Shown here one piece after another: positions 5,298 to 42,077 of a DNA stretch of 42,161 nt (positions within the stretch are counted from its first letter, which is position 1; the number at the start of each line of letters is the position of its first letter). The notes under the pieces are model-generated. The model saw nothing but the letters and a program-made list of their open reading frames with translations, had not been told where the DNA came from and did not search any database. Source of the stretch: a virus; IMG/VR virus record IMGVR_UViG_3300032278_000027, positions 1 to 42,161 of that record. One strand, 5' to 3'. Made by a program: the position numbers and the translations under genes.

Positions 5298-5485
5298 GGC
5301 ATCACCTTCAGGCAATTGCCGCAGCTCACATCGCTTTGTCCGCGAAGTTGCCAGCAGGTGCTTACGTGTATTGGATTGCCGCGTTTTCTTTCGACAACGC
5401 GAGATTCTCCTCTGCCAAGCCGCTCTGCGATAACCATGCCGCATGCGGTCTCAACGCCGAGAGCGGAGACGGCGTGTATTTTCAT
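5294..5485 (-). CDS. small Cys-rich phage protein, 63 residues
   Basis: Contains ETACG near residue 15, STCWQL near 45 and a C-terminal VSCGNCLKVMP. The pattern H-x-n-CG ... VTCxxCL is common in short phage proteins that bind a zinc ion. It has only a weak AGGTG ribosome site, but its start and stop overlap neighbours by four bases, which supports translational coupling. Confidence 0.72.
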   Translation of the reverse strand: MKIHAVSALGVETACGMVIAERLGRGESRVVERKRGNPIHVSTCWQLRGQSDVSCGNCLKVMP

Positions 5486-5735: not shown

Positions 5736-6158
5736 TCACGCGGCCACCGCCATAGCCTCTGCAATCACAGCATCCGGCGCGGTGCCGTTCATGAAGCGGG
5801 CGCATAGCGGCGGGATCGAGGCTTGCACGAATGCCTGGAACGCCTCCTCGCCCATGCTGGCGAAGGATATGCTGCCGGGAACGAATAGCTGCTTGTGTCC
5901 GGTGTCGATCCACTCGCCACAGCCAGCGCCGACCTTGGCGAAGTATAGCGCGGCGTCGGGCGTAAGGTGCGGCTCGCTGTTCTCGCTAATCAGCTTGAGG
6001 ATTGCGAAGTAAAGCCGGTGAAAGCGGGGGTTGCGAACGCGGGTGGGTTTAAGCTCGACCACATCGCCAAGCTTGCACTTGCTGGCCTGCTCCTGCGCCG
6101 CGTCATTGTAGGGGCGGAAGCCATCGGGGGTGTATCGGTATAGGTGGCGCTCGCTCAA
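5736..6158 (-). CDS. DUF1367-like protein
   Basis: 140 residues, starting at TTG in a TTGA overlap with the preceding gene. It shows the layout of the DUF1367 family found in lambdoid prophages: HLYRYTPDGFRPY at the N-terminus, then KCKLGDVVELKPTRVRNPRFHRLYFAIL, and an FQAFVQASIPPL region later. The molecular function of the family is unknown; it is usually encoded among replication and recombination genes, as here. It is the last gene of the second leftward operon, with the promoter of the next operon just beyond its stop. Confidence 0.75.
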   Translation of the reverse strand: MSERHLYRYTPDGFRPYNDAAQEQASKCKLGDVVELKPTRVRNPRFHRLYFAILKLISENSEPHLTPDAALYFAKVGAGCGEWIDTGHKQLFVPGSISFASMGEEAFQAFVQASIPPLCARFMNGTAPDAVIAEAMAVAA

Positions 6159-6520
6159 AGCCCGCGCTCCCGCTTGGCGTCTCGGATCTCGCGGGCGGCA
6201 GGGCTGTCCTTGCAAAACTCTTCCATGAGCGCGCGAACGTCCACGCCCCGCCAGAAGGTTTCCTCGCCTATGTGGTGCTGCCGGTCATGGCACGTTTTGC
6301 AGAGACTCACACAGTAATAATCGCTCGGCTTGCGGCTTGTCCCGCCATCGGTGCCCAGGCGAACGTGCGCGACCTCGATGCCCGCTGTCTCACCGCACTT
6401 GGAACAAGCGAACTGGCGCACGTAGTCGCGGTGCTTCGTGGACTTGAAGCGGCCTGTGCGGTTTGGCTTTTTCCAGTTTGCCCGTTCGGCGTCTTTGTCG
6501 CGGATACGCTTAGGTAGCAT
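6155..6520 (-). CDS. YbcO/DUF968-like HNH-type nuclease
   Basis: 121 residues. The zinc and catalytic pattern is C39-x2-C42, AHVRLGTDGGTSRKPSD (from His52), then C74-x2-C77-H78 and a second His pair, ending GEETFW. This agrees with the YbcO/DUF968 group of small phage nucleases with a beta-beta-alpha-metal fold, thought to process recombination or replication structures. The start at ATG is preceded only by GGGG at a loose distance. The location beside the SSB and annealing genes fits a recombination role. Confidence 0.8.
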   Translation of the reverse strand: MLPKRIRDKDAERANWKKPNRTGRFKSTKHRDYVRQFACSKCGETAGIEVAHVRLGTDGGTSRKPSDYYCVSLCKTCHDRQHHIGEETFWRGVDVRALMEEFCKDSPAAREIRDAKRERGL

Positions 6521-6663
6521 TACACCAGCCCCACATTCCGCATGAACCGCGTCTTGTGTGGCTCGGGTAGCTGTGCTGCGCATCGGCGGGCGTAGTCGAG
6601 GTCAGGCTTTAGGCTTGCCTCTAGGCGCTTGCGGATGCGCTGGCGCTTTAGGAAGGTGAGCAT
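6520..6663 (-). CDS. small basic hypothetical protein, 47 residues
   Basis: Reading frame joined by an ATGA overlap to the RNA ligase upstream, and by a one-base stop/start overlap (TAATG) to the nuclease downstream. The product is strongly basic (LKRQRIRKRLEASLK, HKTRFMRN), so nucleic-acid contact is possible. No family is known. Confidence 0.62.
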   Translation of the reverse strand: MLTFLKRQRIRKRLEASLKPDLDYARRCAAQLPEPHKTRFMRNVGLV

Positions 6664-7202
6664 CACGCGGCCAACGCCTTGGGCAAGTGGTCCTTCTCAA
6701 TTGTTTTTTTAAACCCGATGCCCGCTGCCACGTGATAAACGATAACACCTTCTGGCTTCATGAATCCGGGGGCGGCCACGCTGCCGTCGAATTCCAGTCG
6801 GGTAAGGGCTTCGTTTATCGCAAGTTGCGAAAACTCCCCGCGATAAAGTGTGGGGACGACTTCACAGCATTCCGGGCGCTGCTCCGACCAGCGCGAGACG
6901 TTGAATAGAGAGAACCGCTTTCCGTCGATCCCATAACGCCGCTGGATGCCAGAGCCCCACCACTCACCAAAATGGCGACCGGGGCCAAGTTCGCGCAAGC
7001 ACTCCTCATTTTCATATGCCCATTTGGCGAACCCAAAGTTGTCTTGCTCGGGAGTAATCCAACGCTTGCGCGAGCCTACGAGAAACTGACCATCGTCACC
7101 GATGTAGATTTGGGCGTTCGTGCCGTCGATCTTCTCGGTGACAATGATTTCGCGAGAAAGGCGCGCCATTTTCGGGAATGCTTCGAACGGGATATTTTCC
7201 AT
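6663..7202 (-). CDS. RNA ligase (Rnl2-like nucleotidyltransferase)
   Basis: 179 residues that show the ligase signature motifs: motif I EKIDGTN with adenylated Lys24, GSRKRW (37-48 region), motif III FGEWWG (78-83), IIIa RFSLFNV, motif IV EGVIVYH (151-157) and motif V FKKTIEKD (164-171). It should join 5'-phosphate to 3'-hydroxyl RNA ends using ATP. It is shorter than T4 Rnl2 (334 residues) and lacks a C-terminal domain, so it is a minimal catalytic core like several phage ligases of this family. The ATG has AGGAG six bases upstream; a GTG just before is not needed. A strongly folded leader precedes it. tRNA repair is a possible role. Confidence 0.9.
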   Translation of the reverse strand: MENIPFEAFPKMARLSREIIVTEKIDGTNAQIYIGDDGQFLVGSRKRWITPEQDNFGFAKWAYENEECLRELGPGRHFGEWWGSGIQRRYGIDGKRFSLFNVSRWSEQRPECCEVVPTLYRGEFSQLAINEALTRLEFDGSVAAPGFMKPEGVIVYHVAAGIGFKKTIEKDHLPKALAA

Positions 7203-7220
7203 CACTCACTCCTGTAAATT

Positions 7221-7292
7221 GGCGGGCCTCTTAACGCGGCACCCGGCCCGCCTTGGGTGTGGAGGTGGGGAATGCGAAACCCACCGCGTTAA
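7221..7292 (-). promoter_or_regulatory. three-way-junction pseudoknot leader before RNA ligase
   Basis: In the minus-strand transcript, directly after the ssb stop, a nine-bp stem TTAACGCGG/CCGCGTTAA (7284-7292 with 7231-7239) encloses two hairpins: TGGG-N10-CCCA and CACCC-N10-GGGTG. The loop of the second holds GGCGGGCC (7245-7252), which pairs perfectly over eight bases with GGCCCGCC (7221-7228) just outside the main stem. The far strand ends seven bases before the AGGAG of the RNA ligase gene. Compact three-way junctions with a loop-to-tail pseudoknot are typical of riboswitches and of ribosomal or protein-bound control elements; the class is unknown to me. Confidence 0.6.
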
Positions 7293-7294
7293 AA

Positions 7295-7780
7295 TCAGGT
7301 TGCGCCCGCGTTCGTGATGAACGGGATGTCGTCGTCGAGATCGTCGTAATTCGATCCACCGCCGCGATTGTTGCTAGGACCGGTGCTGCCGAAACCGCCG
7401 CCGCTCTGGCTACTGCCCTGCCCACCTTCGCTCGACTTGCCATCCAGCATGGTCAGGGTGCCGTTCAAGCCGCGAAGGACAACCTCGGTCGAATAGCGGT
7501 CATTGCCCGACTGGTCCTGCCACTTGCGCGTCTGCAACTGGCCCTCGATATAGACCTTGCTGCCTTTGCGCAGGAACCGCTCGGCAACGCCCACGAGGCC
7601 TTCGCTGAAAATGGCGACCGTGTGCCATTCGGTCCGCTCGTGCTTTTCGCCGTCCTGCTTCCACGTCTCGGTGGTGGCAACGCGCAGGTTGCACACCTTG
7701 CCGCCGTTCTGAAAGCTGCGAACCTCGGGGTCCGCGCCAAGGTTGCCAATGAGCATGACTTTATTGAGTGATCCGGCCAT
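7295..7780 (-). CDS. ssb: single-stranded DNA-binding protein
   Basis: 161 residues: an OB fold (1-110) with [41 protein letters not shown] and [16 protein letters not shown], then a Gly/Ser-rich linker and an acidic tail. The motif DDDIPF, which normally forms the very C-terminus and docks partner proteins, is followed here by seven further residues (ITNAGAT). It protects ssDNA during replication and recombination. Its ATG overlaps the stop of the annealing protein gene by one base, so the two are coupled. Confidence 0.96.
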
Positions 7781-8409
7781 TATGCTGCCTTCTTGTTTGC
7801 GTTGATGAATGCCTGGATGTCAGGCAGTTGCTCGTAAGTGAGAGACTTGGTGCTTTCTGGCGTCAGGTGGCGCAGGAGGTCGGCAGGAGCCTTCCCAACC
7901 GATTGCAGTTGCGTCTCGACCCATTGGCGGGTTGCGTCCGTCAGCGGACCGCTAGGGCGAAGCTGCGCAAGTGCCCTGCGGAACACTTCCTGCGCCTCAG
8001 GCTTCCACGCCTTCCACTGCGCCTTGCCCTTGAAATCTTTCGTCTCGCAAGGTGCCCAGACGTTGCCGAGATCGTAGAGATAGCGTCCAATGCCCCACTG
8101 CACCGCCGCGCGCTTCAATGCGTCGGAGATGCCGCCCTTCTCGCCCTCGACCGCCGTGTTGCCCGCACCATCGGTCTTGGTGATCCATTCGTCTTCGACG
8201 CGGATAGAGAGCTTGCACAGGACGCGGCCCGTTGCGGTTTCGTCATAGTAGGTTGACCAGTTGGCGGGACCGCAAACCGCGTCGAGGCGGTCCATAACGT
8301 CGCGCGCGTCAAGATAGGCGAGTGCAAGTGCGCTGCCATTCGCGGACACATGTTGCGCCCGCCAGTGAATGTCTTCCGGCTTGAACTGGGCGGATAGTCT
8401 GTCGATCAT
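7780..8409 (-). CDS. Rad52-type single-strand annealing protein
   Basis: 209 residues with the Rad52/Rad22 core: [22 protein letters not shown], then [27 protein letters not shown] and the helix [20 protein letters not shown]. Proteins of this family anneal complementary ssDNA and, in phages, act with an exonuclease and SSB. The C-terminal 60 residues are helical and less conserved. ATG is chosen (GGGG eight bases upstream); a TTG six bases earlier overlaps the previous stop and is an alternative. It sits between ssb and an exonuclease gene, a classic recombination set. Confidence 0.87.
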
Positions 8410-8411
8410 GC

Positions 8412-9074
8412 TCAATACCCCACGGCTTCAAAGCGTTTGTGGATCTCGCGGACGGTTTCGACATCGCGCTTGCAGTAATCTGCTATCGTCTGATGCTCAC
8501 CGTCCGCCCAAGCCTTCGCGACCATTGAGCCGCCGAAGTCTCCCTTGCATTGCAACCCCAGGGCTTTGCAGAGATTGTCCTGACTGATGCGGTCGCGCGG
8601 TCCAGCCCACGCCACCATCGTATCGAACACGCAATCATCCCACGGCTTAGGCTGGCGGGGGAATGCCACGCTCGGCGGCAGCTTCACCCCAAGGATGATA
8701 GCCCGCCGTAGGATAAAGGGGATGTCGAAGCCGGTAATGTAGTGACCGACAATCTGGTTCATGCCCAGCTCGGGCAGAGCCGCGAAGAAGCTTTCGATGA
8801 TAAGCTGCTCGCACTCTTCGGCTTCCGCATGAACGGCTTGCGCCTCGCCATCGCCAATCGCAAAACCAATCGTGCAGATATGGCCGTGCGCAGGATCGAA
8901 GCTGGTCTTTGCCACAGCTTCGTCAGCCGCCGCGTCGCCATTCTCCGCAATCCATTTGTCGATGCTCTCCTGCTTCTTGTAGCTGGCAGGGGCCTTGACG
9001 TTCTTGCGAACCTCGGCGCGGTATTCCGGCGACTGGTTCGGGATCGTCTCAATGTCGAGGTAGACCGTGTTCAT
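8412..9074 (-). CDS. DEDD-type 3'-5' exonuclease (PolB-exo-like)
   Basis: 220 residues. The exonuclease motifs are visible: Exo I YLDIET (4-10), Exo II VGHYITGFDIPFILRR (near 110-125) and Exo III YCKRDVETV (near 200-208), with DCVFDTMVAW between. This is the predicted PolB-like 3'-5' exonuclease family rather than the PD-(D/E)XK exonuclease often paired with annealing proteins. It likely resects DNA ends or trims recombination intermediates before the Rad52-like protein. Four-base overlap with the gene upstream. Confidence 0.87.
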   Translation of the reverse strand: MNTVYLDIETIPNQSPEYRAEVRKNVKAPASYKKQESIDKWIAENGDAAADEAVAKTSFDPAHGHICTIGFAIGDGEAQAVHAEAEECEQLIIESFFAALPELGMNQIVGHYITGFDIPFILRRAIILGVKLPPSVAFPRQPKPWDDCVFDTMVAWAGPRDRISQDNLCKALGLQCKGDFGGSMVAKAWADGEHQTIADYCKRDVETVREIHKRFEAVGY

Positions 9075-12613: not shown

Positions 12614-12662
12614 TGCTTCCCAATGGGGCCGGGAAGCAGCTGTCCCTTCCGATCCCGGCCCC
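12614..12662 (+). promoter_or_regulatory. alternative-hairpin leader before ParB-like gene
   Basis: Two perfect inverted repeats share bases and so exclude each other: TGCTTCCC (12614-12621) with GGGAAGCA (12631-12638), and GGGGCCGGGA (12625-12634) with TCCCGGCCCC (12653-12662). They end 21 bases before the ATG at 12684. This is an arrangement typical of leaders that switch between folds. If the upstream ATG at 12588 is the real start, the segment would be coding. Confidence 0.45.
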
Positions 12663-12683
12663 TCCACAGAAGGAATGAAAACA

Positions 12684-13550
12684 ATGGCTTCAGTTAGCAC
12701 ACTTTTGCCGAAAAGTAAACCGCAGGCGGGCACCGTCCACTGGTTCAATGACTGCCTCACGCGGTCGCAAACCAAGTCGTTCGGTGAGGAAACAATCCTG
12801 ACGCCGGGTCTGGCGAGTTACATTCTAGACCTCAATGAACAAAACCGCACGCGCCGGACCAACCTCTCCGATCTCTATTCGCGCGACATTCGCGAGGGTC
12901 GCTGGGTCTACAACGGCGAACCGATCATCGTCTCCAAGTGCGGTCGCTTGACGGATGGGCAACACCGCATCGTGTCCGTGATCGCCGCGAACACGCCGAT
13001 TAGGGTAATGTTCGTATTCGGCGTGGACTTCGCCTCTAGGCTTTCGACCGATCAGGGCGGCGCGAAGACTGCTGGCGATTACCTTTCGATGCAGAACGTC
13101 AAGAACGCCAACGTAGCTGCTTCTATTGCCGTGATTCTGAAGGGTGTCGAAAACAGCGAAGGCACCGCTCTTCGCGACCGCTATGTCACTAAGTCAGAGG
13201 TCTGCGAGCGTGTTCTCGCGGATGCCGCCATTGGGCGGGCCGCCGAATACACATCATCTGTCCAGCGTTTCACGCGCGAATTGCTCCCGCCCGCATTGAT
13301 TGGCGCTGCTTACTATCTCTTCGCAGATGTCGATGAGGAAGACGCAGTGGAATATCTCAATCAAGTTTGCATTGGCGAAAACATCAAGCGTGGCGACCCC
13401 GCTTTCGCTGTTCGCCAAGCCCTCTCAAACCTCGACGCCCACGACCGTTTCGAGCGCCTTGAAGTTGTGATGCGCGGTTGGGTTAGGTTCCGTAAGGGCG
13501 GCAAGCTTACGCTGGCTAAGAGCCTCGGCAAGCTCCCGGCAGTGATCTGA
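12684..13550 (+). CDS. ParB-like phage protein, 288 residues
   Basis: Start chosen at the ATG with AAGGA nine bases upstream; the frame is open back to an ATG at 12588. The core (50-140) reads LYSRDIREGRWVYNGEPIIV, then GRLTDGQHRIVSVIAANTPI and VFGVDFASRLSTDQGGAKTAGDYL. These match a family of phage proteins distantly related to ParB/sulfiredoxin nucleotide-binding domains (compare the GQHR box with GxxR). The role in phages is unknown; the C-terminal half is helical. Its stop overlaps the start of a second ParB-like gene, which suggests the pair works together. Confidence 0.72.
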   Translation: MASVSTLLPKSKPQAGTVHWFNDCLTRSQTKSFGEETILTPGLASYILDLNEQNRTRRTNLSDLYSRDIREGRWVYNGEPIIVSKCGRLTDGQHRIVSVIAANTPIRVMFVFGVDFASRLSTDQGGAKTAGDYLSMQNVKNANVAASIAVILKGVENSEGTALRDRYVTKSEVCERVLADAAIGRAAEYTSSVQRFTRELLPPALIGAAYYLFADVDEEDAVEYLNQVCIGENIKRGDPAFAVRQALSNLDAHDRFERLEVVMRGWVRFRKGGKLTLAKSLGKLPAVI

Positions 13551-42034: not shown

Positions 42035-42077
42035 GGTCGGGGAGTGGCGCAGCCTGGTAGCGCACTTGTTTTGGGTA
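42035..42077. repeat. attR: attR core, 43-bp direct repeat
   Basis: Identical to 85-127. This copy runs directly into the 3' half of tRNA-Pro. Confidence 0.93.

Follow-up and report, generated by a model that had tools for sequence, protein, structure and literature searches.

A conserved pseudoknotted RNA element that follows ssb and SSB-like genes in recombination operons of temperate phages

A 42,161-nucleotide stretch of viral DNA (IMG/VR record IMGVR_UViG_3300032278_000027, positions 1 to 42,161; hereafter the window) carries a 72-nucleotide (nt) element on its minus strand, from 7292 to 7221, within the gap between the gene for a single-stranded DNA-binding protein (ssb, SSB) and an RNA ligase gene. 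The element folds into a three-way junction, the third loop of which pairs with the tail. Because covariation is present in all four stems and preserves the shape in about ten other phage contigs, we regard the element as a conserved RNA family with a defined three-dimensional fold that is under selection, rather than a GC-rich spacer. We tentatively propose that it is an intercistronic barrier that separates ssb from the following genes, and in that case probably a barrier to mRNA decay. Such a conserved pseudoknotted RNA of phage recombination operons was found neither in Rfam nor in the literature searched.

The gap from the ssb stop codon to the ATG of the ligase gene is 92 nt long. The four stems of the element, which are Watson-Crick-paired throughout, comprise the closing stem P1, the inner stems P2 and P3, and a pseudoknot helix formed by the P3 loop and the tail. 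The two outer pairs of P2 compete with P1 for the same GG and CC, and the tail stops seven bases short of the AGGAG at 7213-7209. This architecture, including the two-pair conflict and the distance to the ribosome site, had been proposed in a first-pass annotation made from the letters of the window, and is confirmed here for the minus (coding) strand. The parts of the element are:
7221..7292, minus strand: whole element, three-way junction with loop-tail pseudoknot (sequence; blind covariance-model match; covariation; shuffles)
7284..7292, minus strand: P1, 5' strand, UUAACGCGG; 9 base pairs (bp), begins 2 nt past the ssb stop codon (sequence, covariation)
7231..7239, minus strand: P1, 3' strand, CCGCGUUAA (sequence, covariation)
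7280..7285, minus strand: P2, 5' strand, GGUGGG; 6 bp, outer two bases common to P1 (sequence, covariation)
7264..7269, minus strand: P2, 3' strand, CCCACC (sequence, covariation)
7255..7259, minus strand: P3, 5' strand, CACCC; 5 bp (sequence, covariation)
7240..7244, minus strand: P3, 3' strand, GGGUG (sequence, covariation)
7245..7252, minus strand: pseudoknot, 5' strand, GGCGGGCC, within the P3 loop; 8 bp (sequence, covariation)
7221..7228, minus strand: pseudoknot, 3' strand, GGCCCGCC, the tail (sequence, covariation)
7209..7213, minus strand: Shine-Dalgarno sequence AGGAG of the ligase gene, not in the fold (sequence)

Relatives of the element were collected by reading downstream of the stop codons of SSB relatives. 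Loci L087 and L110/L112 have the same architecture as the window, built from different bases. Pattern scans added L196, L202, L204, and L439, whereas L336 was recovered by scanning for the HNH gene. L202 was counted despite its broken pseudoknot. Together with L455, which was picked out by a covariance model, and the window itself, there are nine distinct members (the window, L087, L110, L196, L202, L204, L336, L439, and L455). L112, L173, L183, L332, and L333, which are on the same contigs as L110 or a near-identical twin, were not counted as extra, and neither were L448, from the contig of L336, and L457, which has the same element as L439. L137 is a probable divergent member, left out of the member counts, which keeps P3 (CAUCG/CGAUG) and the pseudoknot (GGCAGAC/GUCUGCC) but has an indistinct P1.

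Covariance models matched loci that were absent from their training sets. Model R1, built from four members with the window left out, matches the window at 7295-7219 on the minus strand with a score of 36.1 bits (E 1.5e-6 in 42 kb), and its next-best match within the same 42 kb scores 9.6 bits. Model R2, built from eight members, identified L455 with 51 bits (E 1.9e-7). The E-values are rough, as they come from short model calibrations. The structural alignment of the nine members was made by hand, with N for gaps, and was arranged to fit the structure, so that the pairing counts derived from it lean towards the structure; the blind model matches are free of this bias. Standard pairs occupy 95.4% of the paired cells of the alignment, and when the partners are slid by one to three columns, the proportion of paired cells falls to 37-47%. 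None of 500 column shuffles attained the covariation score of the alignment.

Both-sided base changes occur at 11 pairs and in all four helices (three each in P1, P2, and P3, and two in the pseudoknot), which bears out the compensatory changes that the first-pass annotation had named as support for its fold. P3 is paired in 100% of cells, has both-sided changes at three of its five pairs, and occurs as CACCC/GGGUG, CUCCG/CGGAG, CCUCA/UGAGG, or CUACG/CGUAG. The pseudoknot helix is paired in 97% of cells, with both-sided changes from G-C to U-A and from G-C to A-U, and its variants are GGCGGGC/GCCCGCC, GUCGGGC/GCCCGAC, and GGCAGGC/GUCUGCC. P1 varies between CGCGG/CCGCG and CGCAG/CUGCG, and P2 is the least regular helix, with 88% of cells paired. 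The alignment rows contain 12 G-U cells and 4 A-C cells in paired columns, an approximately threefold excess, and therefore the sense RNA is likely to be the folded molecule. All invariant columns of the nine sequences fall in helices, and the strand that joins P2 and P3 varies by subtype, being CUCC in one and GGAAG in the other.

Two topology-specific searches gave a signal. When the 92-nt gap was shuffled 20,000 times with its dinucleotides preserved, no shuffle matched the observed topology score of 28, and the best one reached 21. In a topology scan of both strands of 3.07 Mb of phage and bacterial DNA, the window element was the top scorer, with 23, against maxima of 20-22 in Markov-shuffled copies of the same DNA. 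In a loose version of the scan, which allowed G-U pairs, chance matches swamped the signal. Ordinary minimum free energy (MFE) folding of either strand of the gap gave no signal relative to shuffled sequence (z about -0.5), because pseudoknots lie outside the MFE model. Thus, reading a single window can catch RNA structures that MFE screens miss. The nested MFE of the 72-mer is -28.0 kcal/mol, for a structure that favours the pseudoknot helix together with P2. The nested part of the proposed fold alone has -21.9 kcal/mol, and the pseudoknot helix as a closed hairpin -18.3 kcal/mol; a rough estimate from these nested energies suggests that the full knot would at least compete with the nested structure.

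The window resembles an integrated temperate phage, with integrase and S24-repressor genes. Close to its two ends, at 85-127 and 42035-42077, the same 43 bp of a tRNA-Pro gene occur as a direct repeat, which has the form of an attachment-site duplication left by prophage integration. An alphaproteobacterium is the probable host, judging only by the phages with the nearest proteins, which are those of Sulfitobacter, Paracoccus, Erythrobacter, and Caulobacter. The leftward operon that holds the element comprises genes for a PolB-like exonuclease and Rad52, then ssb, the element, the RNA ligase gene, and DUF968/HNH genes. The genes closest to the element are:
7780..8415, minus strand: Rad52-like recombination gene, directly upstream of ssb in the same operon
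7295..7780, minus strand: ssb gene (PF00436), with an acidic DDDIPF motif near the C-terminus; stop codon TGA at 7297-7295
6663..7202, minus strand: RNA ligase gene (PF09414); ATG at 7202-7200
6155..6583, minus strand: DUF968/HNH nuclease gene, which follows the RNA ligase gene; in other members usually the neighbour downstream of the element

The position of the element relative to the upstream gene is fixed. P1 starts 0-5 nt past the stop codon of that gene, and in L196 the stop codon lies inside P1. In eight of the nine distinct members, the gene before the element encodes either an SSB or a protein whose acidic tail resembles that of SSB. The protein is a PF00436 SSB in the window, L087, L110, L336, and L439, and also in the probable member L137. 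In L202 and L204 it is an 87-amino-acid (aa) protein ending in DDLSD(E/S)(V/I)PF, in which Pfam finds no SSB, and in L455 a 212-aa protein ending in DDLDDDIPF. An 88-aa protein with an acidic SSB-type tail, DD(L)xDxIPF, is encoded at 4221-4487 of L196, one gene before the gene that adjoins the element. The 87-aa, 212-aa, and 88-aa proteins are candidate non-homologous phage SSBs, as suggested by their tails.

The genes that follow the element are more diverse. A DUF968/HNH gene is directly downstream in L110, L137, L196, L202, and L336, and one gene or some distance downstream in the window and L087. L455 has another HNH-like gene, named from its sequence only, L204 has a remnant of an HNH start followed by NinB, and L439 has GapR. 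The first-pass annotation had placed the element in front of the RNA ligase gene and considered binding of the ligase to its own message as one option. However, none of 80 RNA ligase relatives lies beside an ssb, so the ligase is not a constant partner of the element; no other locus that keeps the ssb-ligase pair was found, and other members precede a DUF968-type HNH nuclease or other genes. In the window, the RNA ligase gene has probably been inserted into the space that separates the element from the HNH gene. In L087 (3530-3565), L196 (about 5405-5445), and the same stretch of L202, TTAA-N9-TTAA repeats and a small inverted repeat are located between the element and the next gene. This stretch is perhaps an internal promoter or operator, and if so, the element there belongs to the upstream transcript.

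Beyond these loci, the element is indicated to be rare, although the genome searches are weak. Collections of isolated phages and plasmids, searched at the nucleotide level with the window, consensus, or subtype element, yielded no member. Neither did weak tests of 385 alphaproteobacterial genomes, with at most 13 candidates scored per genome, in which pattern matches were fewer than those of the reversed-pattern control. The matches listed from a pattern scan of genome contigs scatter over unrelated phyla, and a strict rescan yielded no member. One model match from a class-wide genome search, L470, is inside a coding sequence and probably arose by chance.

A structural role of the element in the transcript is suggested by its fixed place after ssb, by the unlike proteins and genes on its two sides, and by the conservation of its fold but not of its loops. 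Since the upstream proteins and the downstream genes are unlike, a general transcript function is favoured over the operator of one protein. The fold is also not tied to a single ribosome site, because the distance from the end of the pseudoknot to the next start is about 50-105 nt in L087, L196, L202, and L455. The element would act in cis as a structured part of a polycistronic early (recombination) transcript of temperate phages. SSB would be needed in bulk, and the nucleases or the ligase in traces, and the knot would allow one lifetime for the ssb portion of the mRNA and another for the portion that follows, so that the products are made at different levels. The genes on both sides are on the same strand as the element and separated from it by short gaps, which is the position of an intercistronic stabiliser, and they presumably share a transcript. 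The SSB in front of the element and the genes behind it are exchanged, but the element stays in place, and so it may represent a control step invisible to gene-based annotation.

The barrier could operate in two directions. In the first variant, the knot would halt 3'-to-5' decay that enters ssb after cleavage further downstream, comparable to the structures of malE-malF and puf. According to PMC5927463 and its reference 9, intercistronic structures guard upstream genes from 3'-to-5' decay in malE-malF, and the stability of Rhodobacter puf mRNA requires an intercistronic stem-loop. As described there, these stabilisers are likewise stable structures between genes of the same operon needed at unlike levels; however, they are simple stem-loops, whereas the phage element is a conserved pseudoknotted junction. 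In the second variant, the knot would halt 5'-to-3' decay by RNase J that leaves ssb, similarly to viral exonuclease-resistant RNAs (xrRNAs). Rhodobacter sphaeroides has RNase J1, PNPase, and RNase R (PMC7866481), and a flaviviral xrRNA stops bacterial RNase J1 (PMC5760640).

Several observations weigh against the decay barrier. A plain hairpin would suffice against 3'-to-5' exonucleases, and the first variant alone leaves the elaborate knot unexplained. The gene upstream of the element in L196 encodes a DUF6551 protein and not an SSB. An HNH gene or its remnant is downstream in eight of the nine distinct members, a link about as strong as that to the upstream gene. The end of the pseudoknot is about 18-25 nt from the next start in the window, L110, L137, L204, L336, and L439, which would suit initiation control. 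The pseudoknot of L202 (element at 6958-7027) is broken, with GGCAGAC facing GCCCGCC. Finally, most SSB relatives lack the element (about 76 of 80), including the closest ones (L082, L083, and L093, 85-91% identical), and hence it is a sporadic, exchangeable piece.

The spacing in those six loci speaks for an alternative that we consider possible but doubtful, in which the element is a translational regulator of the downstream gene, either riboswitch-like or protein-bound. The formation and melting of the knot would alter initiation, for example in response to a metabolite, temperature, or ribosomes ending at the ssb stop codon. With a distance of about 18-25 nt, the pseudoknot ends where the upstream margin of a 30S subunit would lie during initiation, and a terminating ribosome would cover the 5' strand of P1, which begins 0-5 nt past the stop codon, and would thus allow the fold to be coupled to ssb translation. 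The riboswitch suggested by the first-pass annotation is weakened by the remaining evidence. No conserved unpaired pocket is seen, as the invariant columns are all helical (a weak point with only nine sequences), and the P2-P3 junction strand is subtype-dependent. The Shine-Dalgarno sequence is unpaired in the model and in no member lies inside the modelled fold, as an expression platform would. The next start is much further away in the four loci named above, the overall range being about 18 to 105 nt, and the downstream genes (nucleases, RNA ligase, GapR) are unrelated and define no single pathway.

Feedback by SSB is an unlikely explanation. Surplus SSB would bind the RNA of the element, or an exposed single-stranded part of it, and lower its own expression or that of a neighbour. 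Some phage SSBs do bind their own mRNA, gp32 of phage T4 being an example, and the constant position beside ssb or SSB-like genes fits such a role. The adjacency thus supports the autoregulation that the first-pass annotation had considered, but the single homologous SSB that it would call for is missing. The upstream proteins include two kinds of PF00436 SSB, the 87-aa and 212-aa proteins that share only the acidic tail of the ...DDIPF type, and the DUF6551 protein of L196. Moreover, the closest SSB relatives do without the element. The autoregulatory pseudoknot of T4 gene 32 is also in the mRNA of a phage ssb, but it is located in the 5' leader. The element described here instead lies on the 3' side of ssb, and the SSB proteins encoded before it are unlike one another.

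The second variant of the barrier has a stronger form, to which we assign a low probability, namely that DNA phages independently evolved an xrRNA-like knot. It would mechanically stop 5'-to-3' decay by RNase J at the end of ssb, leaving an RNA with its start at the knot, either a stable mRNA for the downstream genes or a free phage RNA. The element and the flaviviral xrRNAs (PMC5760640, PMC8571300) have a common strand order, P1a-P2-P3a-L3-P3b-P1b-tail, with the P3 loop pairing just 3' of P1, and both are about 70 nt long and placed after an open reading frame. The L3-tail helix has 7-8 bp in the phage element, compared to 2-7 bp in the natural flaviviral PK2 (PMC8571300). Unlike the flaviviral RNAs, the element belongs to DNA phages, has a very GC-rich P1 of 7-10 bp, and shares no sequence similarity with them. 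Even at E-values up to 10, no credible Rfam match was found. For a pairing of the xrRNA ring type, between nucleotides 5' of P1 and the junction, 2-nt complementarities are visible by eye in some members, but they are too short to count for or against it, and the 5' flank is coding. The likeness is one of topology, an analogy and not membership. It raises the question of whether phages use this device against bacterial RNase J. If the xrRNA-like reading is true, the element would be, to our knowledge, the first exonuclease-resistant RNA of this topology in a bacterial virus.

A role at the level of DNA is improbable. As a single strand of DNA, the element would fold to serve replication, recombination, or packaging, or it would be a module-exchange hot spot; a function in DNA was likewise considered for the STAXI motif (PMC2864571, Weinberg 2010). 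It is indeed located where modules meet, with different genes on either side, and ssb and recombination genes adjoin it. Furthermore, L202 has the appearance of recombination between two members within the element, or of a chimeric assembly, as the 3' half of its element and its downstream leader are identical to those of L196, with the pseudoknot left unpaired. However, the excess of G-U over A-C cells is that predicted for sense RNA, and all members have the element in one orientation relative to transcription. The last reading, that a GC-rich intergenic spacer happens to permit four stems, agrees with the MFE of the gap being no better than that of shuffled sequence but is refuted by the covariation and the blind model match, together with the sequence and column shuffles.

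Four further candidates were rejected. For an HDV-like ribozyme, taken to lie on the plus strand, the second P1 strand would be inside the P3 loop, which is the wrong order, and Rfam shows nothing. A ligase leader is incompatible with ligase relatives that are not beside ssb. For a stimulator of stop-codon readthrough or frameshifting, the frame of the window hits a second stop after one codon (UGA UUU UAA), and the other members have no shared slippery site. As to an intrinsic terminator as the general role, only L087 has a U run behind the pseudoknot helix when this is taken as a simple hairpin.

The nearest described RNA by context is the STAXI motif, likewise a pseudoknotted RNA often found near SSB and other DNA-handling genes (PMC2864571). 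Its structure differs, with two to three tandem pseudoknots, whereas the phage element has a single copy per locus read, a three-way junction, and a different pairing order; Rfam gives no STAXI match for the element. The L17 downstream element (PMC2864571) is similarly a conserved RNA that immediately follows a single gene and may act in feedback, but the gene, structure, and organisms are other ones. In Rfam 15, no match was found for three members at permissive thresholds, nor for the window element at gathering cut-offs, which agrees with the earlier statement that no described class fits, and a search of the open-access literature found no paper on such an element.

A different structure may be present elsewhere in the window, in front of a gene that starts at 12675 and has no Pfam match. 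At 12625-12686 on the plus strand, a 10-bp hairpin (GGGGCCGGGA/TCCCGGCCCC) has a loop with UCCCUUCC, which complements the AGAAGGA that immediately precedes the ATG at 12675, and this region is a possible second pseudoknot that could hide a ribosome site.
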